Shown: in pieces, positions 2 through 63,011 of the stretch
How positions within the stretch are numbered: the first letter of the stretch is position 1
Layout of the letters: every line of letters begins with the position of its first letter
Origin: Martensiomyces pterosporus
Taxonomy: Eukaryota; Kickxellomycota; Kickxellomycetes; Kickxellales; Kickxellaceae
Assembly (NCBI GenBank): GCA_025201845.1
Contig: MU603963.1
Span: 62,001-126,000 of the forward strand
Direction: 5' to 3'
DNA length: 64,000 nt
The notes under the pieces: generated by a model
Told to the model about the DNA's origin: nothing
Seen by the model: only the letters and a program-made list of their open reading frames with translations
Database searches by the model: none
Program-made: the position numbers and the translations under genes

Positions 2-3000
2 GTGCCGCTGGCTATTCTAACTGGCGGCAACACCGCCCATATGATGAACATCGACGCCAGCGAATCGCTGCGCGGCCTCCAGCTGGCAGTGGCAGCGGGG
101 CTGCCTGTACCGCAGTACTCCAACATGGATCTGACAACGATGTCCGGGTCGTATTTGGGCCACTCGTCAAGCTGGCACAGCGGGAGCATACCATGGGCAC
201 AGCATATCCCAGTGGCCTCGTTTGGCTCTGCTGGCCACATTAACAAAAGCCCCACGGCAGTCCCCGATGCGCAGCTGGCCAAATCTCAAAAGAGCCAGCG
301 CTCATTTGCCGAAACACCCGGTGTGTCGGTGCCTCATAGCACTGAAGAGCCAGATGTATCCCAGTTCCCTGTGAATCAACCAGTGACCTATGCCAGCACT
401 GAAACGGCCCCCCGCGCTCCAAACGATCCGGGCGCTGCATTCGAGCAAGTCGTGTCCAGACGGTCGCAAGTGAGCGCCGGCTCGCAGTCGGTGTTCAACA
501 CAGGATCGGCGAGCGGACCCACATCGATATCATCAACCATCAGATCAATGAGAGGGCCGCACAAACTGGGCAGCGACGGAGCGCGCGGCTTGCCGCACAC
601 AAGCACTTTTGGTACAAACGTTGTCTACCGTAGTATGACTGGCAGCGGAACCATGACTCCAATTGGCAGCGCATTCCCGCTGGGCGCAAACCAGTATGAC
701 CGGCGCAACCTGGGGTTTGCGGGCCTCCGTGGATACATTGGAAATGGTACATCTCGCCAACGCGCCAGCGGCAGCTCCACCTCTAATATGCGTGGCGAGG
801 ATGGCGGCATCCCACATGGATATTACACGCCACTTGGCAGTGGTGGCGGCGCTGGGCCCGCATCAAACAGAGGCCTCAGCATCGGCGTTGGTCAGGGGAT
901 TGGCTCTGGGATCATGCCGCGCGAGTCGCTGCTCGCTCTGCCTTCCTCGACGTCGACAAACACCTCAGCGGCAAACCCTGCAGATCGGCCAGGCAGACAG
1001 CGGCTAGATGGTTCGCGGCAGCCTCCACGCGGCCTGCGCAACAGCCCATCGCCATTACCAGTGGCATCGGCCTCGCCACAAAAGGGCCAGCAGCTGTCGC
1101 GCTACAGCCCATCCATGGGCCCGTGGGCAAGCTACAAGGAGACCAGCGTTCTGAGCACAATAAGGGACCAGGACGATAATGAAGCCCGCAGCGACGTAGA
1201 GCGTCCCCGTCGTCTCTCTGCAGCGGGCAGGAGGCTTTCGGGCGACCCTACAATGCCTGCTATGTCTGGCAGAGAGGCCACACTGAGTCCTATTAGCGAC
1301 GAGCCAGCTGGACGAGCATACTTCATGAACACTGAGCCCCCCTCTGTCAGATCGCATTCGTCACTAGGCACAGGAGCCAGTGCGCACCACCTTGCTGTCG
1401 AGGACGAGAAGGAGGAAGAGATTGAGGAGGCGCCTCAGCCTATGGAGCTGGATGTCGCCACGTTTTTGGTCGGCGGTGTTTCAGCCGGCAAGAGAAGACG
1501 GCTGATACTCGAGGAGCCGTTTTCCAATGTGCCCCCAGCTGAGAGCGCTGGAGACGAGGATAGCGAGTACGAGATGAATGAGCTGGTGTCGCTTGTGACC
1601 ATGGATGGCGTTATCAGCTGCTACGACCCAGAGCGCAAGATCAACCACTTCGTCAGCCTCAGTTCAAAAGACCCGGTTTTGGGAATTTGGAAGGCCAAGA
1701 TGCACGAGGAAGTGTGCAATCCTTCGCCGCTCGAGACAATGCGTCGTGATGGCGGCGCCGGTTTCGACCTCAAGGTGGGCGATGAGCTTTTGGCTAGCAC
1801 GCCCGCAAAGCGGATATATAGGCGAGTCGGGCTATCTCGCCGCGACCTGTACCACGCTGTGCAATACTCGATCTATGTCGAAGACAACCTGTACATGGTG
1901 GATCGGCTCGAGACCCGCCGCCGCAAGTTGAGCAAGCGCATGGTAAGGAACGTGCGCAGCCGGAATCAGCTGAACTATGCGGCTGCAGCTGGTAGCTCCA
2001 GCCGCCATCCCATCAAGGGCGAGGACGCCTCTCCTGACCGCTCAAAGGGGACTCTGCCCCTTCAGCAGCTTATAAAGAGCACGTTTAGCGAGCGCGCCCG
2101 TGGGAGGATTGCAAAATATAACCGCGTTGGTCGAGCCGTGCGCAGTATCGGCCACCACCTCCGCGATTTGGCAACTGGCGCCCAGACTAGCACCACAAAT
2201 GTGTCGGCAGCGGTGGCAGCGCCCTTTACGCCGTCTCAGCCGGTCACTGATGAAGAAACGAGTGCTATGGTGAGCGAGTACACGACTCCCGGCTTGTCCT
2301 TGTCACCCACAAACCGCAAGTTTGCGCAGCTCCAGCAGCCCTCAGCAAACGCCTCTTCTGCAGGCAGGTCCAACGACGCCGAGGAAATGAAAAGAGGCGT
2401 GGCAAACAGCAGCCACCCGCCATACGAGAGCACAGCATCGACCAACGAAGCCAAACCCGCATGGATGCTTGGTGCCCGCTTAGGAGCCGCCCAGGTACCA
2501 AAGGCAGCCGGCAACGATATTGCAGCTGCACTGACTGGCTGGTACGGTGAGAACAAGAACGACTATCGCCGCAGCCTCCAAGTATCGGACCATTTGGTAG
2601 TGAGCACGTGGCGCGGAACGACATACTTTGTCGATGTTGGCACCTTGTTGGACATTGCACACTACAACCAGCTGTTTATGCATCGGTGGAACAGCAGGGC
2701 AGTGGCAGCAGCAGCCGAAGCAGCAGCAGCGTCGTCGTCCGAGAAGGATGGAGGAAGCAGCGCTGATACGCAAAGCCTTGCAATGTGCACTCTTTACGGC
2801 CACCTCAGCCATTTCGCGGACACCAATGGCCTTATCTCGCGACTGCGTGCCAACGCCAGCGTCATTCAGTTCAAGTTCCAGGACACGGTGTCTGCCTTTT
2901 TGACAGACACGTATGCGCCGGCTACAGGAGGCCCGAATGTCCCCTGCCTGTTTTATGTCGACTACAAAGATCGCATTTGGGTCTACTACCACCTCGATGA

Positions 3001-3715
3001 GATTGCGGAGATGGACGACGTGTATGGCGCGACATGGCTACGCGATGAGCTGCAGAGCCTTCAGATCTCCGACTCTATCCCTTCGCTGGACAAGCCATTC
3101 AGGGCCAACTGCAACTACGATAAGCCATTCTCTGCCGTCGACCTTGCATACCGCCGCATCAACTTGGATCCCTGGATGCCGCTGCCCGGCGATGGCTGGT
3201 ACAAAAAACTGATCTCGAGCAGCGAGCACCAATACCCTTACTCGTCAAAGACGTGGCGCAAGCGCGCGACTGCCTGCAAAGCGACTGCATCTGAAAATGC
3301 GCCAGCGGGCAGCAAGCCTCGAGAGACTGCTGATGCTCGCAACGAGCCCAGCAAGGGCTACAGCTTCAGTTCTCGCGTTGAAGATCTGCGCACGATCAAC
3401 TCCAGCCGCACACCTAGCGAAGCCAGCACACAAGGGTATATACCCCAAGGCAATGCCAATGTGACAGGCCGCTTCCATGCATCTTTCTTGCCTGGACCAT
3501 ACATGTGTCCGATTTGGGCCGATATCAACTCTGTCGATTTGTATGATGTCGGGTCTACCAACCTTCTTGAGCTTGCCACTCCAGAGCTTCTGGCCATGAA
3601 GGATGTTTTCTGCAAGGAGCTTGGCATTGATCCCAGCTCGATCGACGAGAAAGTGAATCTTTCGACGGTGCCTGGCCTGGCCAACTGGGTGCGTAGCTAC
3701 TTGTACTTTTCGTAA
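2..3715 (+). CDS. ITFG2-like (KICSTOR-type) beta-propeller protein, 5' end missing
   Basis: The frame is open from the window edge for 1237 codons, so the true start lies upstream. The first ~480 residues are Ser/Gly/Pro-rich and look disordered, with few hydrophobic blocks. Ordered sequence begins near nt 1570 (NELVSLVTMDGVISCYD) and resumes near nt 2575-3015. The second block holds DHLVVSTWRGTTYFVD and, ~100 residues on, VIQFKFQDTVSAF ... NVPCLFYVDYKDRIWVYY. From my memory of the family, this order and wording resembles the end of the propeller in animal ITFG2, a subunit of the KICSTOR complex that anchors GATOR1 at lysosomes for amino-acid control of TORC1. The fungal protein would be far longer than the roughly 450-residue animal protein, because of disordered inserts. 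An AATAAA lies 20 bases after the stop. The family call is inference from motif similarity; the partial CDS itself is secure. Confidence 0.6.
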   Translation: MPLAILTGGNTAHMMNIDASESLRGLQLAVAAGLPVPQYSNMDLTTMSGSYLGHSSSWHSGSIPWAQHIPVASFGSAGHINKSPTAVPDAQLAKSQKSQRSFAETPGVSVPHSTEEPDVSQFPVNQPVTYASTETAPRAPNDPGAAFEQVVSRRSQVSAGSQSVFNTGSASGPTSISSTIRSMRGPHKLGSDGARGLPHTSTFGTNVVYRSMTGSGTMTPIGSAFPLGANQYDRRNLGFAGLRGYIGNGTSRQRASGSSTSNMRGEDGGIPHGYYTPLGSGGGAGPASNRGLSIGVGQGIGSGIMPRESLLALPSSTSTNTSAANPADRPGRQRLDGSRQPPRGLRNSPSPLPVASASPQKGQQLSRYSPSMGPWASYKETSVLSTIRDQDDNEARSDVERPRRLSAAGRRLSGDPTMPAMSGREATLSPISDEPAGRAYFMNTEPPSVRSHSSLGTGASAHHLAVEDEKEEEIEEAPQPMELDVATFLVGGVSAGKRRRLILEEPFSNVPPAESAGDEDSEYEMNELVSLVTMDGVISCYDPERKINHFVSLSSKDPVLGIWKAKMHEEVCNPSPLETMRRDGGAGFDLKVGDELLASTPAKRIYRRVGLSRRDLYHAVQYSIYVEDNLYMVDRLETRRRKLSKRMVRNVRSRNQLNYAAAAGSSSRHPIKGEDASPDRSKGTLPLQQLIKSTFSERARGRIAKYNRVGRAVRSIGHHLRDLATGAQTSTTNVSAAVAAPFTPSQPVTDEETSAMVSEYTTPGLSLSPTNRKFAQLQQPSANASSAGRSNDAEEMKRGVANSSHPPYESTASTNEAKPAWMLGARLGAAQVPKAAGNDIAAALTGWYGENKNDYRRSLQVSDHLVVSTWRGTTYFVDVGTLLDIAHYNQLFMHRWNSRAVAAAAEAAAASSSEKDGGSSADTQSLAMCTLYGHLSHFADTNGLISRLRANASVIQFKFQDTVSAFLTDTYAPATGGPNVPCLFYVDYKDRIWVYYHLDEIAEMDDVYGATWLRDELQSLQISDSIPSLDKPFRANCNYDKPFSAVDLAYRRINLDPWMPLPGDGWYKKLISSSEHQYPYSSKTWRKRATACKATASENAPAGSKPRETADARNEPSKGYSFSSRVEDLRTINSSRTPSEASTQGYIPQGNANVTGRFHASFLPGPYMCPIWADINSVDLYDVGSTNLLELATPELLAMKDVFCKELGIDPSSIDEKVNLSTVPGLANWVRSYLYFS

Positions 3716-4644: not shown

Positions 4645-4715
4645 GCGTCTGTGGTCCAGAGGTATGATTGCCGCCTGCCACGCGGTAGACCCGGGTTCGA
4701 TTCCCGGCGGACGCA
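4645..4715 (+). tRNA. tRNA-Gly (GCC anticodon)
   Basis: A 71-base cloverleaf. The acceptor stem GCGTCTG pairs with CGGACGC at 4708-4714 (one T-G pair), followed by discriminator A at 4715. The B box/T arm is GGTTCGATTCC at 4694-4704, and the A-box-like D arm starts TGGTCCAGAGG. The anticodon GCC is at 4677-4679 in the loop CTGCCAC, which reads Gly GGC/GGU. There is no intron and no encoded CCA. A T run at 4718-4721 and a longer one at 4730-4734 can serve as Pol III terminators. The gene lies 54 bases from the 3' end of the convergent PEX7 gene. Confidence 0.97.
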
Positions 4716-4769
4716 CATTTTGCCAGTGCTTTTTATTTGGACAGTGCTGGTGGCGGTCTTTTTGCTTTT

Positions 4770-5837
4770 CTAGTTTGGCGAAATGGGTGCCTGGAACACA
4801 TGGACCTGCTCGTCCCAGCCGCAGGTGGCCAGCTGGCCGGGGTGGAAGAACGACCAGTCGACCCCGAAAACAAACTCGCTGTGTGCGTCGTGGACAAAAG
4901 TCACCGCGCCAGTCCTGACGTCCCAGATGCTGGCAGACATGTCGTATCCAGCAGTGGCGATGTAGTTTGGCGAGAACGGCGAGAACTTGACTCGCCGCAC
5001 GGAGAACTCAAAGGGCCCAAACATGGACACCTGTCCGCGTGGATTGCGAATGTCCCAGATCTTGATCGTTCGGTCCACTGACGAGGTGGCAAAGAGCTCG
5101 GGCGAATACTTGTTCCAGTCCAGCGATAAAACCTGGTCAAGGTGGCCGCCGAATGTCATTAGCGATCTGCCGCTGGGTTCGTTTACGCTCCACAGCTTGA
5201 CAGTCTTGTCTTCGCCGCATGTGGCGAACTGATCTGGCTGTCTAGGCGACCACGCGCTTGTATAGACACACCCTGTGTGCTCTGCAAAGGTTCTGAGCGA
5301 CTGCGGCGCAGCTGGATTCCACAGTTTGACTGATCCGTCCCAGGACGACGAGAGGAGCGTTGTTTTGGCAATGTAGTTCCACTCGACGCTCATCACTTCG
5401 CGCTTGTGCTCCTGCCATTTTGCAATTGGAAGGCTGTTCAGCGTAATGTCCCAGAGCTTGACGCTGCCATCGCCGCTCGCAGTCGCCAGCTGGTTCTCAT
5501 GCACCTCGCTCCATGACAGGTCAAACAGGCCGTCCTGCGTGTCGTAGTTTTGCCGCAGCTGCAGACCCTTGGGCCCCATTTGCGTGCCCAGCACCGATAG
5601 TCTTCCGTTGCCGACTAGACCAAAGTTTGCGCTGGTCGCTGCTGCCAGTAGCCTGTCATTGAAGGGGCTAAACTTTACCTAGATGAACAGCAGAGCATAG
5701 CTTGGGGTTTTGGGAGAGATATCAGGGTGCAAGCTCTACATCCACATATCGGTGCATCCACGCCTGGATGGTAGTCTGGACCGTCGGAAACTTACCGCGT
5801 AGCCCTTGAAACCAGCGGTTCTGTATCGCATAGACAT
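4770..5837 (-). CDS. PEX7: Peroxisomal targeting signal 2 receptor Pex7
   Basis: WD40 receptor that binds PTS2-bearing enzymes in the cytosol and delivers them to the peroxisome docking complex with a co-receptor. Two coding exons: 5796-5837 (14 codons, MSMRYRTAGFKGYA, donor GTAAGT) and 4770-5678, in phase 0. The join gives GYA-VKFSPFNDRLLAAA, the typical Pex7 N-terminus, followed by ANFGLVGNGRLSVL. The protein is 316 residues, against about 320 in animals and 375 in yeast. WD signatures are regularly spaced: GDGSVKLWD, WDGSVKLWN, GEDKTVKLW, SVDRTIKIWD and DMSASIWD, ending in CGWDEQVHVF. Upstream of the 116-base intron the start codon fits the family. It is divergent from RRP36 and convergent with tRNA-Gly. 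A TTTATT on the plus strand at 4732-4737 is a candidate poly(A) signal. Confidence 0.95.
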
Positions 5838-18192: not shown

Positions 18193-18447
18193 CAGGCGTG
18201 CGCTTTAGCCGAATGCGGGCCTTCTTTCTTTATCCGCTAGAGGCAGTTTTCTTTCTGTACTGTATTTTTTTTTATCAGGGAAAAGCACCCACAAACCTGC
18301 CACCACAGTGCATTGGGCGATCCTATAATTTCATATTCATATCCAAAACCCGTTGGTTGTCTTTTTTTATATAGGCATATTTGGACACTGCCGCTTCTCT
18401 TCTCCATTGTCTCGCTTACATGTTCTAATATAGTTTCTAGGAGAACA

Positions 18448-19677
18448 ATGGCTGAGCGCAACGGGCGGATAAGGTGCCTTGAGTTTTTCAGCGGGATCGG
18501 TGGGCTGCACTATGGATTCCAAGAAAGCCAGGTCGATGGCGAGGTTGTCATGTCGTTTGACATGAACGAGAACGCCAACAGAGTGTACGAGCACAACTTC
18601 AGGATGCGGCCCAACAACAAGGCTATCGACTACCTGGTGCCCCGGGACATTGAAAGGCACGATGCGAACTGCTGGCTGCTCAGCCCTCCCTGCCAGCCGT
18701 ACACACGTGGCGGCAAGTACCTGGATGACGAAGACCCACGCGCTCGGGGGTTGGTCCACCTGCTAGAGCTGCTGCCAAAGCTCGACAAGGTCCCATCGTA
18801 CCTGTTTTTGGAGAACGTGATGAACTTTGAAAACTCTCGATCGCGCAGATTAGCAGTTGAAACGCTGGGCCACTTGGGGTTCGAGATCCACGAGTGTCTA
18901 ATTTCGCCTGTGCAGTTAGGAATCCCCAACAACAGGCTGCGCTACTTTCTGATCGCATGCCGCAGGTGGCCAGCTCCCAGCAGCCGGCCTGGCGACGGCG
19001 ATAGCGGCACTACTGAGGCATGGCTTGCTGAAAATAAGAAACGAACAGCCGAGTATTTGGCGCGTGGCCGGGATGTCGTACATGTGGATTGGCCGTTTGG
19101 GTCCGCCGTCAAGTCAATGGCTGGTGTCGAGATCCCCAAGATCCCGCTAGCGCAGTACATTGACCCTGCGCAAAACGGCGACAGGGCCCTTTGGGTTCCC
19201 GAAAGAGCAATTATGAAGCGCAAAAACCTCGAGTTTGACATTGTCCGCCCATTGGACACGCAGACATCGACGTTCACCAAGGCGTATGGATCGAAGCACT
19301 TGATCGGGTCGGGATCGCTGCTTCAGACCAAAAATCTGGACGTTGTAGAGAACGGGTTTGGGTCGCCGGAGAAGCTCCTTGATCTGGGCCTGCGTTTCTT
19401 TTCGCCCAAGGAGGTCGCACTCTTGCACCACTTCCCTTTCCACAACCCCCACCCCACCAGCGATGATGGAGACGCCGGTAAAGAAGAGGAGGAAAAGGGC
19501 GGCGCAAGCGCAAAGCGTGCAAGGCATGCAAGATACATGCTAGAGTTTCCTACAGGCATAACTCAGCAGCAGCAGCTGAAGCTCCTGGGCAACAGCCTGA
19601 ATGTCAAGGTCGTGGCAGAGCTGCTCAAACACATACTCTTCGCTGAGCCACCTGTAGAGACTAGCAACAAGCAGTAG
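18448..19677 (+). CDS. TRDMT1: tRNA (cytosine-38-C5)-methyltransferase, DNMT2/TRDMT1 family
   Basis: SAM-dependent enzyme that methylates C38 of tRNA-Asp (and in some species Gly/Val). The 409-residue protein starts at MAERNG (18448); upstream in-frame codons lack the family pattern. Motif I is LEFFSGIGGLHYGF; motif IV is SPPCQPYTR with catalytic Cys82; motif VI is FLENVMNFE; motif VIII is GIPNNRLRYFLIA; motif X is LLGNSLNVKVVAELL. The CFT signature normally found before motif IX reads STFTKAYG here, with Thr275 in place of Cys. A 30-residue acidic/Lys-rich insert follows HHFPFHNPHP. The product is somewhat longer than the 391-residue human enzyme. No DNA-methyltransferase regulatory domains. 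A tRNA-Gly(GCC), a known DNMT2 substrate type in some organisms, lies 14 kb away. Confidence 0.93.
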   Translation: MAERNGRIRCLEFFSGIGGLHYGFQESQVDGEVVMSFDMNENANRVYEHNFRMRPNNKAIDYLVPRDIERHDANCWLLSPPCQPYTRGGKYLDDEDPRARGLVHLLELLPKLDKVPSYLFLENVMNFENSRSRRLAVETLGHLGFEIHECLISPVQLGIPNNRLRYFLIACRRWPAPSSRPGDGDSGTTEAWLAENKKRTAEYLARGRDVVHVDWPFGSAVKSMAGVEIPKIPLAQYIDPAQNGDRALWVPERAIMKRKNLEFDIVRPLDTQTSTFTKAYGSKHLIGSGSLLQTKNLDVVENGFGSPEKLLDLGLRFFSPKEVALLHHFPFHNPHPTSDDGDAGKEEEEKGGASAKRARHARYMLEFPTGITQQQQLKLLGNSLNVKVVAELLKHILFAEPPVETSNKQ

Positions 19678-59584: not shown

Positions 59585-60512
59585 GCGGGGTGCTGCTAGT
59601 GTTCCCTGGCTTTCCGCGTGAGAAAGGATTGCTGTGGCTCCTTGTTTGTTTCTTTTAAAATAACATCGCCAGCACTTGCCTGCCAAGGCGGCGTCGCTGC
59701 TGAACTGCATATGTAGTAGCACATGGAAAGGCGCTCCAGAGACCCATCCTGCGCATCCTCCTGTGCTTCTAAAACGAGAAAGCAGAGAGGCGAGGGAAAA
59801 CATGGCGGTGGAGGCAGTGGTGCTTGTTTACACAATGTAATGCTTTCGGCACCCACCCTCGCAAGGCCAGATGCGCAGCGAGTCATCTCGCACCAGGCAG
59901 CACCCTTGCTCCGAAAGAAATGCTGTTCTGGCAAAGCACAGCATTCTGCTCTCCCGGAAACGCCCATGCCTGCCCGCCACTGGCGCAGACACGAGGGAGA
60001 GAAATACTAGAGCAAGGCTTGCACTTTGCCAGCACTAGAGGGGGGCTGCGTAGGAGCATGTTGCAGGCTTCCAAACATGGCAAGGCCAGTCTTCGGAGGA
60101 CAATGGCGCACGCAAATGCCCACGGAGGACTGAGGATTTCGCCATCCTCATATCCACATAACGCCATTTCTGCTGCAATGGCACGATCACGGCCAATCAT
60201 CTTGTAATCAGTCCCTACAAGGCAGCAAATCGCGAAGCACCCCATGCCTGTGGAGGGAAAATTAGAGCACGCCATCGCATCATCCGCCCACAGGTTTTTG
60301 CCTTTGCTGTTAGCATTTTTAATATTCTCTGCCTTGCCGCATTTTCCGTGGTTTCTCGCTGGAGCGTAGCACCCTTGCTTTTGCTGTGCGTCTTCTCAAC
60401 TGCCAGAACGCCTGCCTGCCTGCCCGCCCTACTGAGCAGAGCACATATAACACCCACGTATCCCTCCCGCCTCCCCCGCTCATTTCCCTTTTTCTTTTTT
60501 TGTTCTGTAAGA
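59585..60512. promoter_or_regulatory. Intergenic region upstream of MET30
   Basis: 928 bases between tandem genes. Short ORFs only. TATAA at 60446-60450 precedes a long pyrimidine tract (60454-60507) that leads to the MET30 ATG, a common fungal core-promoter layout. Confidence 0.45.
60446..60450 (+). promoter_or_regulatory. Possible TATA box of MET30
   Basis: ATATAAC context, 63 bases before the start codon and just upstream of a CT-rich tract. Confidence 0.35.
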
Positions 60513-63011
60513 ATGACTATAGACTCCTCTCCCTCTCCTTCCCCTTCCTCTTCCAGTTCCTCTCATAACACTTCTGATTCGGCTTCTGACAAAAACAATT
60601 CCTCGCAGCACACAGATTCCCTGCAGCAAACTGGGGACTCTGGCCACAACGACCACGATAAGCAACTGCCTTTATCTCGCACTGCTGAAAATACGCGCGG
60701 CAAAATGAGCTCTACCGTGTCAACATACTCGCCAGTCGACTCGGGTTACATCGTAGCCGACGCTCAGAGGATTCGCATCAACCCCGGCGACTCGGCTAGC
60801 CAGCCCCAGCAGCAGCTGGCCAAAGAAGATAACAACACCACGGAGGCTGTTCTGGCGGCAGGGGGCCGTAAGCGCAACTTCACAGAGTTTGTGGGCGGCA
60901 GCAGCAGCACCAGCAACATGTCCTCGATGGAGCTCGACATACTTTCTTTGAGAAAGTACCCGGCATTCGGCGGGCGGTGCTACCGGCACTCCACACAGGT
61001 GTACCTGGCCGAGTGTGACAACACGCAGCGCGAACTGCAAGCCTCGCTGCACGCTCTGCCAAAGGCCGAGCAGGTGAAGATCAGCGGCATTTGGAGCAAC
61101 TTTGCGTCTGAGCCTGCGGAACGCCGGCTATTGATTCTTCAGGGGATCGTCAACCTCTGCTGTATCCCCCAACTGTCTTATCTCAACAAGGTGGTGCCTC
61201 AGCAGCTCCGCGTCGACTTCCTCGCTGCTGCTCCGCCAGACATTTCACTCAAAGTGCTCTCCTATTTGGATGCCAAATCGCTGTGCCAGGCTGCGCAGGT
61301 GTCCAGGACGTGGGCAGCGCTGGCCAACGACGATATCCTGTGGCACAGGATGTGTGCCCAGCACATTGACAAAGTCTGTAAGAAGTGCGGGTGGGGTCTG
61401 CCGCTGCTCGACAGATCGAGTAGGCGCGTGTATGAGGCTACGGCGCGTAGGGCACTGAGGCTGGCGTCGAGTGGAAACAGCGCCATTGAGTTTCAGGCAC
61501 GCCATAAACCGTATCACACTGCCCAGGAGTGCTACGACTCTGCCAGGACTAATGACAGCACGCCTGTGAACGGTCCAGTGGCTAGCACGTCGTATACGTT
61601 TGCGCTCCCCACATCAAACGTTACAATTGACCCAGCGCTGCCGCAAATGCAAACACAGCAGCATCAGCAGCAACAACAACAACAACAAGTGCAGAGCCAG
61701 CAAATGATCCCCGTGTCGTCCCTCATTAATTCATCAGACCTCGACGTGTCGCTTGTCAGCAGTGTATGTGCGCCGCAGAATACTGTGCAATTCATGCAAG
61801 GACCACAACAGCAGAACAATGGAGGTGGCAGCACGGGGTCATCCGGTATCCCACGCCGCCTGTCGTACTTGCATATTTCTGCAGATGCCGAGAGCGGCAA
61901 CGTCAGCGACAGCAGCAGCTCAGGCAGCAACAGTGCCCAAGGCTCCAACAACGATGAAAGCAGTCCCCGTGGTCCTACGGGTGCCAGCCACAAGGTTAAG
62001 CGTCGTCCGTGGAAGGATATTTTTGCAGAGCGTCAGATCATTGCCAACAACTGGCGCAAGTTCCGCTACCACGAGTCCCAGGTGCCCGCACATGCCGACG
62101 GCATTTTGTGCGTGCAGTTCAACGACGAGTACATGATCACTGGGTCGTACGACAGCAAGGTGCATGTGTGGGACGCGGAGACCTTCGAGCTGGCGTGCGA
62201 GCTCACCGGGCACACGATGCCTGTGCGGGCGCTGGAGTTTGACGACTGCAAGCTGTTCAGCGGCTCGCTGGACGGGACCGTGAGGATCTGGAATTACCGC
62301 GACGGGACGTGCATTCGCACTTTGAGGGTGTTTGAGAACGGCGGTGTGATTTCCCTGCACCACCAGAAGGGCACACTGGTCGTGGGCGGTGAAAACGGAT
62401 CCATCCGCGTGTACAACATTGCCAAGATGACCAGCTTTACGCTCACTGGACACACGGACTGGGTCAATGCCGTGCGGCTGTATGGCGACAACACGCTGTT
62501 CTCTTGTTCGGACGATATGCTGGTCAAAAGGTGGGACCTCGAGAAAAGGCAGTGTGTGCGCACATACACGGGCCACTCGCACCACGTGCAGTCGCTCCAG
62601 CTGTCCAGTCGTGCGCCGCCGTCTCTGGACAGCTCGCCGGCAAATGCATTTGGCAGACGGCGGCCACTGGCCAAGGACTGTGCCGAAGATTCGCGCCCAT
62701 TCCTGATCACTGGCTCGCTGGATAGCACGATGCGCGTGTGGGATATTGAGACTGGCGAGTGCTTGGATACGGTCTTTGGGCATGTCGAGGGCATTTGGTC
62801 CATGGCATTCGACTCCCTCCGGATTGTGTCTGGGTCTAACGACGGAACTGTAAAGGTCTGGGACACCTGCTCTCATGCTTGCTTGTTTACTCTCCAAGCG
62901 TCCCCAGCGGCCATCAACTGCGTGGCCATCAGCGACACGAGGATCGTTATTGGCGACAACGACGGCAATGCGCATATTTACGACTTCCGCGATGGCGCAA
63001 TCCATCACTGA
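60513..63011 (+). CDS. MET30: F-box/WD40 ubiquitin ligase subunit Met30/SconB
   Basis: Substrate receptor of an SCF ubiquitin ligase that controls sulfur-amino-acid genes by acting on Met4/Cys3-type activators. The 832-residue protein starts at MTIDSSPS (60513). The Met30-specific N-terminal block is present: FGGRCYRHSTQVYLAECDNT then LPKAEQVKISGIWSNFASEP and ILQGIVNLCCIPQLSYLN. F-box: PDISLKVLSYLDAKSLCQAA at ~242-262, then VSRTWAALANDDILWHRMC and the CKKCGWGLPLL signature. A Gln-rich, Ser-rich linker separates it from seven WD40 blades (~527 to the end), e.g. TGSYDSKVHVWD, SGSLDGTVRIWN, SCSDDMLVKRWD, TGSLDSTMRVWD and SGSNDGTVKVWD. The combination distinguishes it from Cdc4/Fbw7. Single exon. 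Confidence 0.93.
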   Translation: MTIDSSPSPSPSSSSSSHNTSDSASDKNNSSQHTDSLQQTGDSGHNDHDKQLPLSRTAENTRGKMSSTVSTYSPVDSGYIVADAQRIRINPGDSASQPQQQLAKEDNNTTEAVLAAGGRKRNFTEFVGGSSSTSNMSSMELDILSLRKYPAFGGRCYRHSTQVYLAECDNTQRELQASLHALPKAEQVKISGIWSNFASEPAERRLLILQGIVNLCCIPQLSYLNKVVPQQLRVDFLAAAPPDISLKVLSYLDAKSLCQAAQVSRTWAALANDDILWHRMCAQHIDKVCKKCGWGLPLLDRSSRRVYEATARRALRLASSGNSAIEFQARHKPYHTAQECYDSARTNDSTPVNGPVASTSYTFALPTSNVTIDPALPQMQTQQHQQQQQQQQVQSQQMIPVSSLINSSDLDVSLVSSVCAPQNTVQFMQGPQQQNNGGGSTGSSGIPRRLSYLHISADAESGNVSDSSSSGSNSAQGSNNDESSPRGPTGASHKVKRRPWKDIFAERQIIANNWRKFRYHESQVPAHADGILCVQFNDEYMITGSYDSKVHVWDAETFELACELTGHTMPVRALEFDDCKLFSGSLDGTVRIWNYRDGTCIRTLRVFENGGVISLHHQKGTLVVGGENGSIRVYNIAKMTSFTLTGHTDWVNAVRLYGDNTLFSCSDDMLVKRWDLEKRQCVRTYTGHSHHVQSLQLSSRAPPSLDSSPANAFGRRRPLAKDCAEDSRPFLITGSLDSTMRVWDIETGECLDTVFGHVEGIWSMAFDSLRIVSGSNDGTVKVWDTCSHACLFTLQASPAAINCVAISDTRIVIGDNDGNAHIYDFRDGAIHH

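Follow-up and report, generated by a model that had tools for sequence, protein, structure and literature searches.

Does a fungus encode a subunit of KICSTOR, the partner of GATOR1 that is called vertebrate-specific in the accessible part of a paper in Nature Communications (2024, PMC10957897) and absent from Drosophila in that of a 2026 preprint (PMC13370336)? This question is raised by a stretch of 64,000 nucleotides from Martensiomyces pterosporus (contig MU603963.1, below C35, positions 62001-126000; genome of 17.4 Mb in 216 contigs), hereafter the window. An open frame at window 2-3715 on the forward strand contains SDHLVVSTWRGTTYFVD from 2585, NASVIQFKFQDTVSAF from 2852 and NVPCLFYVDYKDRIWVYY from 2936. 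In these three stretches a preliminary description, made from the letters alone, had seen a resemblance to the end of the propeller of animal ITFG2 (window 2575..3015). We conclude, with a probability of roughly 85%, that this Kickxellales fungus has a KICSTOR complex and that the gene codes for its ITFG2 subunit.

The window holds the 3' part of a giant gene. The gene starts at C35:57448, which is 4,553 bases ahead of the window, with a first exon of 32 codons (C35:57448-57543, MRTISLSSRLQWAFRGTVLPGALATGDVDNDG). An intron of 129 bases with GT..AG borders (GTGAGT at its 5' end, TAG at its 3' end) separates this exon from exon 2 (C35:57673-65715), which runs through 2,680 stop-free codons up to the stop at window 3713-3715. 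Its last 1,237 codons and the stop form the window part of the gene (2..3715, forward strand), and the strands singled out in the preliminary description lie close to the 3' end of the gene (window 2585-3004). The joined product of both exons has 2,712 amino acids. This two-exon model is borne out by the window's own database protein (P0002), because that protein has 2,712 amino acids as well; across the exon-2 query it shows 100% identity, and its first 32 residues are the same.

Exon 2 matched the Pfam family Itfg2 (PF15907) with 99.3 bits (expectation value, E, 3.3e-28), which passes the cut-off of 27 bits, and the window part alone reached 33.1 bits. The second-best Pfam family on exon 2 was FG-GAP_3 (E 0.48), and an NCBIfam scan of the protein gave no match. 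Geminin also matched the window part weakly (E 0.24), which was taken as chance. When PF15907 was searched against the whole genome, all three matched places lay inside the giant gene: two upstream of the window in the same frame, and family positions 282-328 at C35:64852-64995 (E 9.3e-8). The latter corresponds to window 2852-2995 and confirms the resemblance to the ITFG2 propeller end that the strands had suggested. None of 14 prokaryote control genomes matched the family. A search of 177,635 distinct PDB sequences at E ≤10 returned two matches only (E 2.9e-11 and 3.5e-11), each carrying the name "KICSTOR complex protein ITFG2".

Homologues were sought among about 5.8 billion proteins, where the 7,984 candidates that shared most words with the query and had 0.55-1.75 times its length were scored. 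The 27 matches comprised the window's own protein, 25 from Coemansia and one from Kickxella alabastrina; 25 of the 26 entries besides the window's own are named hypothetical protein. Those longer than 2,400 amino acids (n=24) measure 2,435 to 2,853 residues, except for one of 3,060 that is apparently a fused gene model. In this entry from Coemansia interrupta (P0011, "COBW domain-containing protein 1"), a COBW-type protein is joined to giant ITFG2, which looks like an annotation error.

The 24 Kickxellales proteins above 2,400 amino acids, with the three shorter ones dropped, were used to build a profile, of which we picked a core of 539 columns for hhalign. The human comparison sequences were checked against PDB chains. 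Hhalign aligned the profile with human ITFG2 at a probability of 99.65 (E 3.7e-25, 368 columns, 30% identity), spanning human residues 1-384 of 447 and leaving the final 63 residues unaligned. The corresponding probabilities were 2.1 for human KPTN, 0.2 for one reversed and 0.1 for one shuffled ITFG2. That is, the profile fits human ITFG2 along the propeller and far above its partner propeller KPTN. Judged by sequence, the giant protein is an ITFG2 orthologue in which the human propeller strand blocks are kept in the same order, and the proposal of an ITFG2-like KICSTOR subunit in a fungus held up.

By eye, ten blocks of the fungal protein could be matched to human ITFG2, with 101 of 345 residues identical. 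The fungal gaps between them measure 119, 336, 635, 193, 494, 24, 293, 72 and 186 residues, against 0 to 38 in the human protein. Within the window, all on the forward strand, the strand block ELDVATFLVGGVSAGKRRR (1445..1501) corresponds to human residues 251-269 (5/19 identical) and the block MNELVSLVTMDGVISCYD...DPVLGIWKAKMH (1574..1705) to 272-315 (7/44 identical). Both were drawn by eye and are conserved in Kickxellales, and a low-confidence model puts strands at the second. Further downstream, SDHLVVSTWRGTTYFVD (2585..2635) was matched to human 320-336 with 6 of 17 residues identical, and the strands NASVIQFKFQ...PCLFYVDYKDRIWVYYHLDEI (2852..3004), which include the match to PF15907 282-328, to human 338-387 at the propeller end (17/51 identical). 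A mostly conserved C-terminal tail (3563..3712) carries KELGIDP, like QELGVDP of human ITFG2; this likeness was judged by eye and falls outside the part aligned by hhalign.

Compared to the 447 amino acids of human ITFG2, the fungal protein is enlarged about six-fold; it has some 2,270 residues more, and this surplus consists mostly of low-hydrophobicity inserts with conserved islands. Disorder-promoting residues make up 72-85% of the inserts (a set chosen by us, applied without disorder predictor or control). In the 24 Kickxellales proteins, 25.7% of the length falls into 19 conserved islands, seven of which lie apart from the human-matched blocks. Examples from inserts, again on the forward strand, are RNLGFAGLRGYIGN at 704..745 (mean column identity 0.90, n=24, outside the human-matched blocks), PPSVRSHSSLGTG at 1337..1375 (0.90, with the RxxS site RSHS in 24/24 proteins) and STPAKRIYRRVGLSRRDLYHAVQ at 1796..1864 (0.84). 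The last is followed by a long, K/R-rich helix, predicted in a poor model at window 1838-1966 (residues 143-185) within an insert not found in human ITFG2. At least 20 of the 24 proteins keep 12 of 37 RxxS/T sites and 12 of 29 S/T-P sites, and just two of 11 R[RK]xS/T sites. Because these counts have no chance control, a signalling role of the conserved sites is only a suggestion.

We looked for the partners of ITFG2 in the same genome. Human KPTN matched C13:58610-58978 (E 3.8e-13, 40% identity). The corresponding gene model of 735 amino acids, with a start codon of our choice, gave 8.5e-18 to human KPTN versus 1.7e-4 to human ITFG2 in blastp, strong sequence evidence that the KPTN partner is encoded.

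For SZT2, a protein search with the human sequence yielded 43 proteins, of which the species-named ones are all animals and one (P0068) is unnamed. One of them, a mollusc SZT2 (P0070), matched C91:16348-17058 (E 2.9e-4) in a frame that runs for 4,990 codons without a stop (C91:2485-17454, reverse strand). A loss of SZT2, first suggested by two empty human queries, was overturned by this match. A profile of 12 SZT2 proteins (11 named animals plus one unnamed entry) scored 70.5 bits on the main frame, in seven segments in profile order. At E ≤10, the profile matched neither the reversed frame nor any of 20 shuffles, nor ITFG2 and KPTN from the same genome. An upstream exon on the same strand, at about C91:17603-18160, matches profile positions 107-169. 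Including it, the model of 5,176 amino acids reached 96.5 bits (E 1.4e-28 for 5,800 sequences), while the best of 100 shuffles scored -2.6 bits. Two of the seven segments were strong alone (5.9e-18 and 1.2e-4). A Pfam scan of the candidate gave no significant match; Pfam has no SZT2 family. The profile thus makes a strong case that the genome encodes the SZT2 scaffold.

The KICS2 family search found nothing in the genome at the default threshold and one match at E ≤10 (C14:151395-151736, E 0.004). It points to a frame of 1,184 codons on the reverse strand of contig C14 (L021:797-4348), which would give about 1,217 amino acids with a short first exon; by eye, the upstream stretch MVRLPLQALSEFVARLSKFDYEPAKIANSKVME could be this exon, in phase with the frame. 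Four regions, chosen by eye, were compared with human KICS2 using 2,000 shuffles each. The first exon plus the first 30 frame residues scored 56 against human KICS2 1-75 (shuffles ≤40), and the central part scored 78 (shuffles ≤57). Pairwise hhalign between the candidate and KICS2 gave a probability of 29. Adeno_PIX, the sole other Pfam family listed for the candidate besides that of KICS2 (E 0.89), was taken as chance. We regard the C14 gene as a probable KICS2 candidate and do not count it as a family member. Of the partners that the preliminary description had proposed to search for, KPTN and SZT2 were recovered, and KICS2 only as this probable gene below the Pfam cut-off.

The three GATOR1 subunit families were found over their cut-offs (IML1, E 1.4e-98; NPR2, 3.5e-54; NPR3, 8.5e-49), and none of the 14 control genomes matched them. 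Gtr1_RagA gave two strong matches over the cut-off (3.2e-63 and 4.7e-49), taken as Rag-type GTPases. Among six weaker ones are a segment adjoining the first match and probably other small GTPases. Only the two strong matches were counted, because this family also matches two of the 14 prokaryote controls. The Sestrin family was represented by one C-terminal segment only (E 3.0e-7). Judging from these family matches, the KICSTOR scaffold and GATOR1, the enzyme it should tether, both appear to be encoded.

By analogy with the human system, the ITFG2 propeller would pair with KPTN and then join SZT2. The resulting scaffold would hold GATOR1 at the vacuole, where GATOR1 would turn off the RagA-type GTPase, and hence TORC1, during starvation. 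Less certainly, the inserts may loop out around the propeller scaffold as regulated docking arms, a role proposed because short islands in them, and RxxS/T and S/T-P sites, are conserved. Assembly of the complex and its vacuolar location are argued from the human analogy.

Several results weigh against a KICSTOR complex with such a subunit. Human SZT2 residues 1-852 and a 217-residue continuation had no genome match at E ≤10. Five of the seven SZT2 segments were weak alone (0.2 to 95), and when residues 1-2,818 of the main frame were compared with the PDB by phmmer, neither SZT2 nor any other significant match was reached. The KICS2 frame scored 17.8 bits (E 0.0014) against Pfam C12orf66_like (PF09404), under the 22-bit cut-off, and did not reach KICS2 in the PDB. 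Its middle and C-terminal parts were within chance (203 and 185 of 2,000 shuffles reached the score), and in whole-frame phmmer one of 200 shuffles came near the candidate (E 0.33 versus 0.17). AlphaFold gave a mean pLDDT (predicted local distance difference test) of 34.3 for the window part alone and 40.0 with 23 homologues; the second model placed strands at the expected stretches of this part, mostly at pLDDT <60. These models neither support nor refute a propeller. Finally, the joined ITFG2 core, used as a query for proteins of 296-943 amino acids, returned three Coemansia entries only, all marked partial. No fungal ITFG2 of ordinary size was seen in this search or in the first, which was filtered by length.

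Some of these results would fit an ITFG2 orthologue that acts outside KICSTOR, that is, an ITFG2-KPTN pair with another job in Kickxellales whose partners were lost or repurposed. The empty human SZT2 queries and the empty default-threshold search for KICS2 are what this explanation would predict. We consider it unlikely, since SZT2 was found by the mollusc query and confirmed by the profile, a KICS2 candidate exists and three GATOR1 subunits are present. Far less probable still is that the gene belongs to another FG-GAP or WD40-type propeller family and looks like ITFG2 only through similar strands. Propeller strands are short and similar between families, and FG-GAP_3 did match weakly, but no rival Pfam family came near, the PDB matches were ITFG2 only, and the ordered match through the propeller was far above the KPTN, reversed and shuffled controls. 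On sequence grounds, this explanation is refuted.

Compatible with a KICSTOR subunit, and a serious contender with somewhat less than even odds, is the view that the inserts arose by neutral growth of fast-evolving loops and have no function, the propeller alone being at work. Conserved islands leave about three quarters of the residues uncovered, the inserts are rich in disorder-promoting residues by the uncontrolled count given above, and long stop-to-stop frames occur elsewhere in the pathway (Sestrin 1,061, NPR3 1,064, IML1 2,769). The inserts may be neutral expansion, as other pathway proteins here are also long-framed. The seven islands outside human-matched blocks argue against this, as do the kept RxxS/T and S/T-P sites, yet R[RK]xS/T sites were rarely kept and none of these site counts has a chance control. 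Overall, the conserved islands make docking or phospho-control arms plausible, and neutral growth is nearly as likely.

Around the ITFG2 gene, we observed a tRNA-Gly (gcc) just downstream (window 4645-4716) and an adjoining gene for a WD40 protein on the reverse strand (window 4773-5678), which may be PEX7-like. Elsewhere, the window contains a C-5 cytosine DNA methylase-type protein (18241-19674, E 7.7e-26) and a 949-codon open frame that matches F-box and WD40 families (60162-63008).

The preliminary description had expected a fungal homologue to change the picture of KICSTOR as an animal addition. The homologue is there, but on its own it does not alter that picture any more, since Barua, Plecha and Muszewska (Sci Rep, February 2025, PMC11836306) already describe, in the available part of their article, KICSTOR in non-Dikarya fungi. 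According to that part, BLASTp was run with human, mouse and yeast proteins (E ≤1e-5) and losses were rechecked by tBLASTn with the closest relative. The main text, as far as available, does not mention Coemansia. Our literature search, mostly among papers outside subscription, found nothing linking KICSTOR and Coemansia; for KICSTOR and Kickxellomycota, and likewise for fungal orthologues of ITFG2 together with KPTN, it returned this article alone. Relative to the available main text, the giant ITFG2, the SZT2 and KICS2 candidates and a near-complete Kickxellales complex appear to be new.

Four candidate KICSTOR subunits in one fungus would point to an ancient complex with repeated losses, and they add to the evidence for its pre-animal origin. 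Since human SZT2 queries failed in this genome, BLASTp-type searches can miss real genes; with a divergent SZT2 overlooked in this way, SZT2 losses may have been overestimated. A propeller whose sequence blocks persist although roughly 2,270 additional residues separate them would make for an uncommon scaffold.

How does the fungal set compare with known systems? Human ITFG2 (PDB 25ge_B and 9o5a_G; PF15907) shares the N-terminus, the strand order and the closing PCLxYV strands with the fungal protein, as well as DxDxDG-like motifs recognised by eye. It differs in size, with 447 against 2,712 amino acids; between the matched blocks, eight of the fungal gaps span 72-635 residues and the ninth spans 24. 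Human KPTN, SZT2 and KICS2 (PDB 9v6e) have orthologues or candidates in the fungal genome, and these models are longer too (735, 5,176 and 1,217 amino acids versus 436, 3,432 and 445). With the yeast SEACIT/GATOR1 system, the genome shares the GATOR1 subunit families. Unlike this genome, yeasts have no counterpart of the KICSTOR subunits in Table 1 of PMC11836306, in the portion available. The closest known system is the KICSTOR of non-Dikarya fungi in the same article, which by homology would be the same complex and for which the available text names all four subunits across various fungi. Whereas that text reports missing components in Kickxellomycota, all four subunits can be proposed for the Kickxellales genome analysed here.

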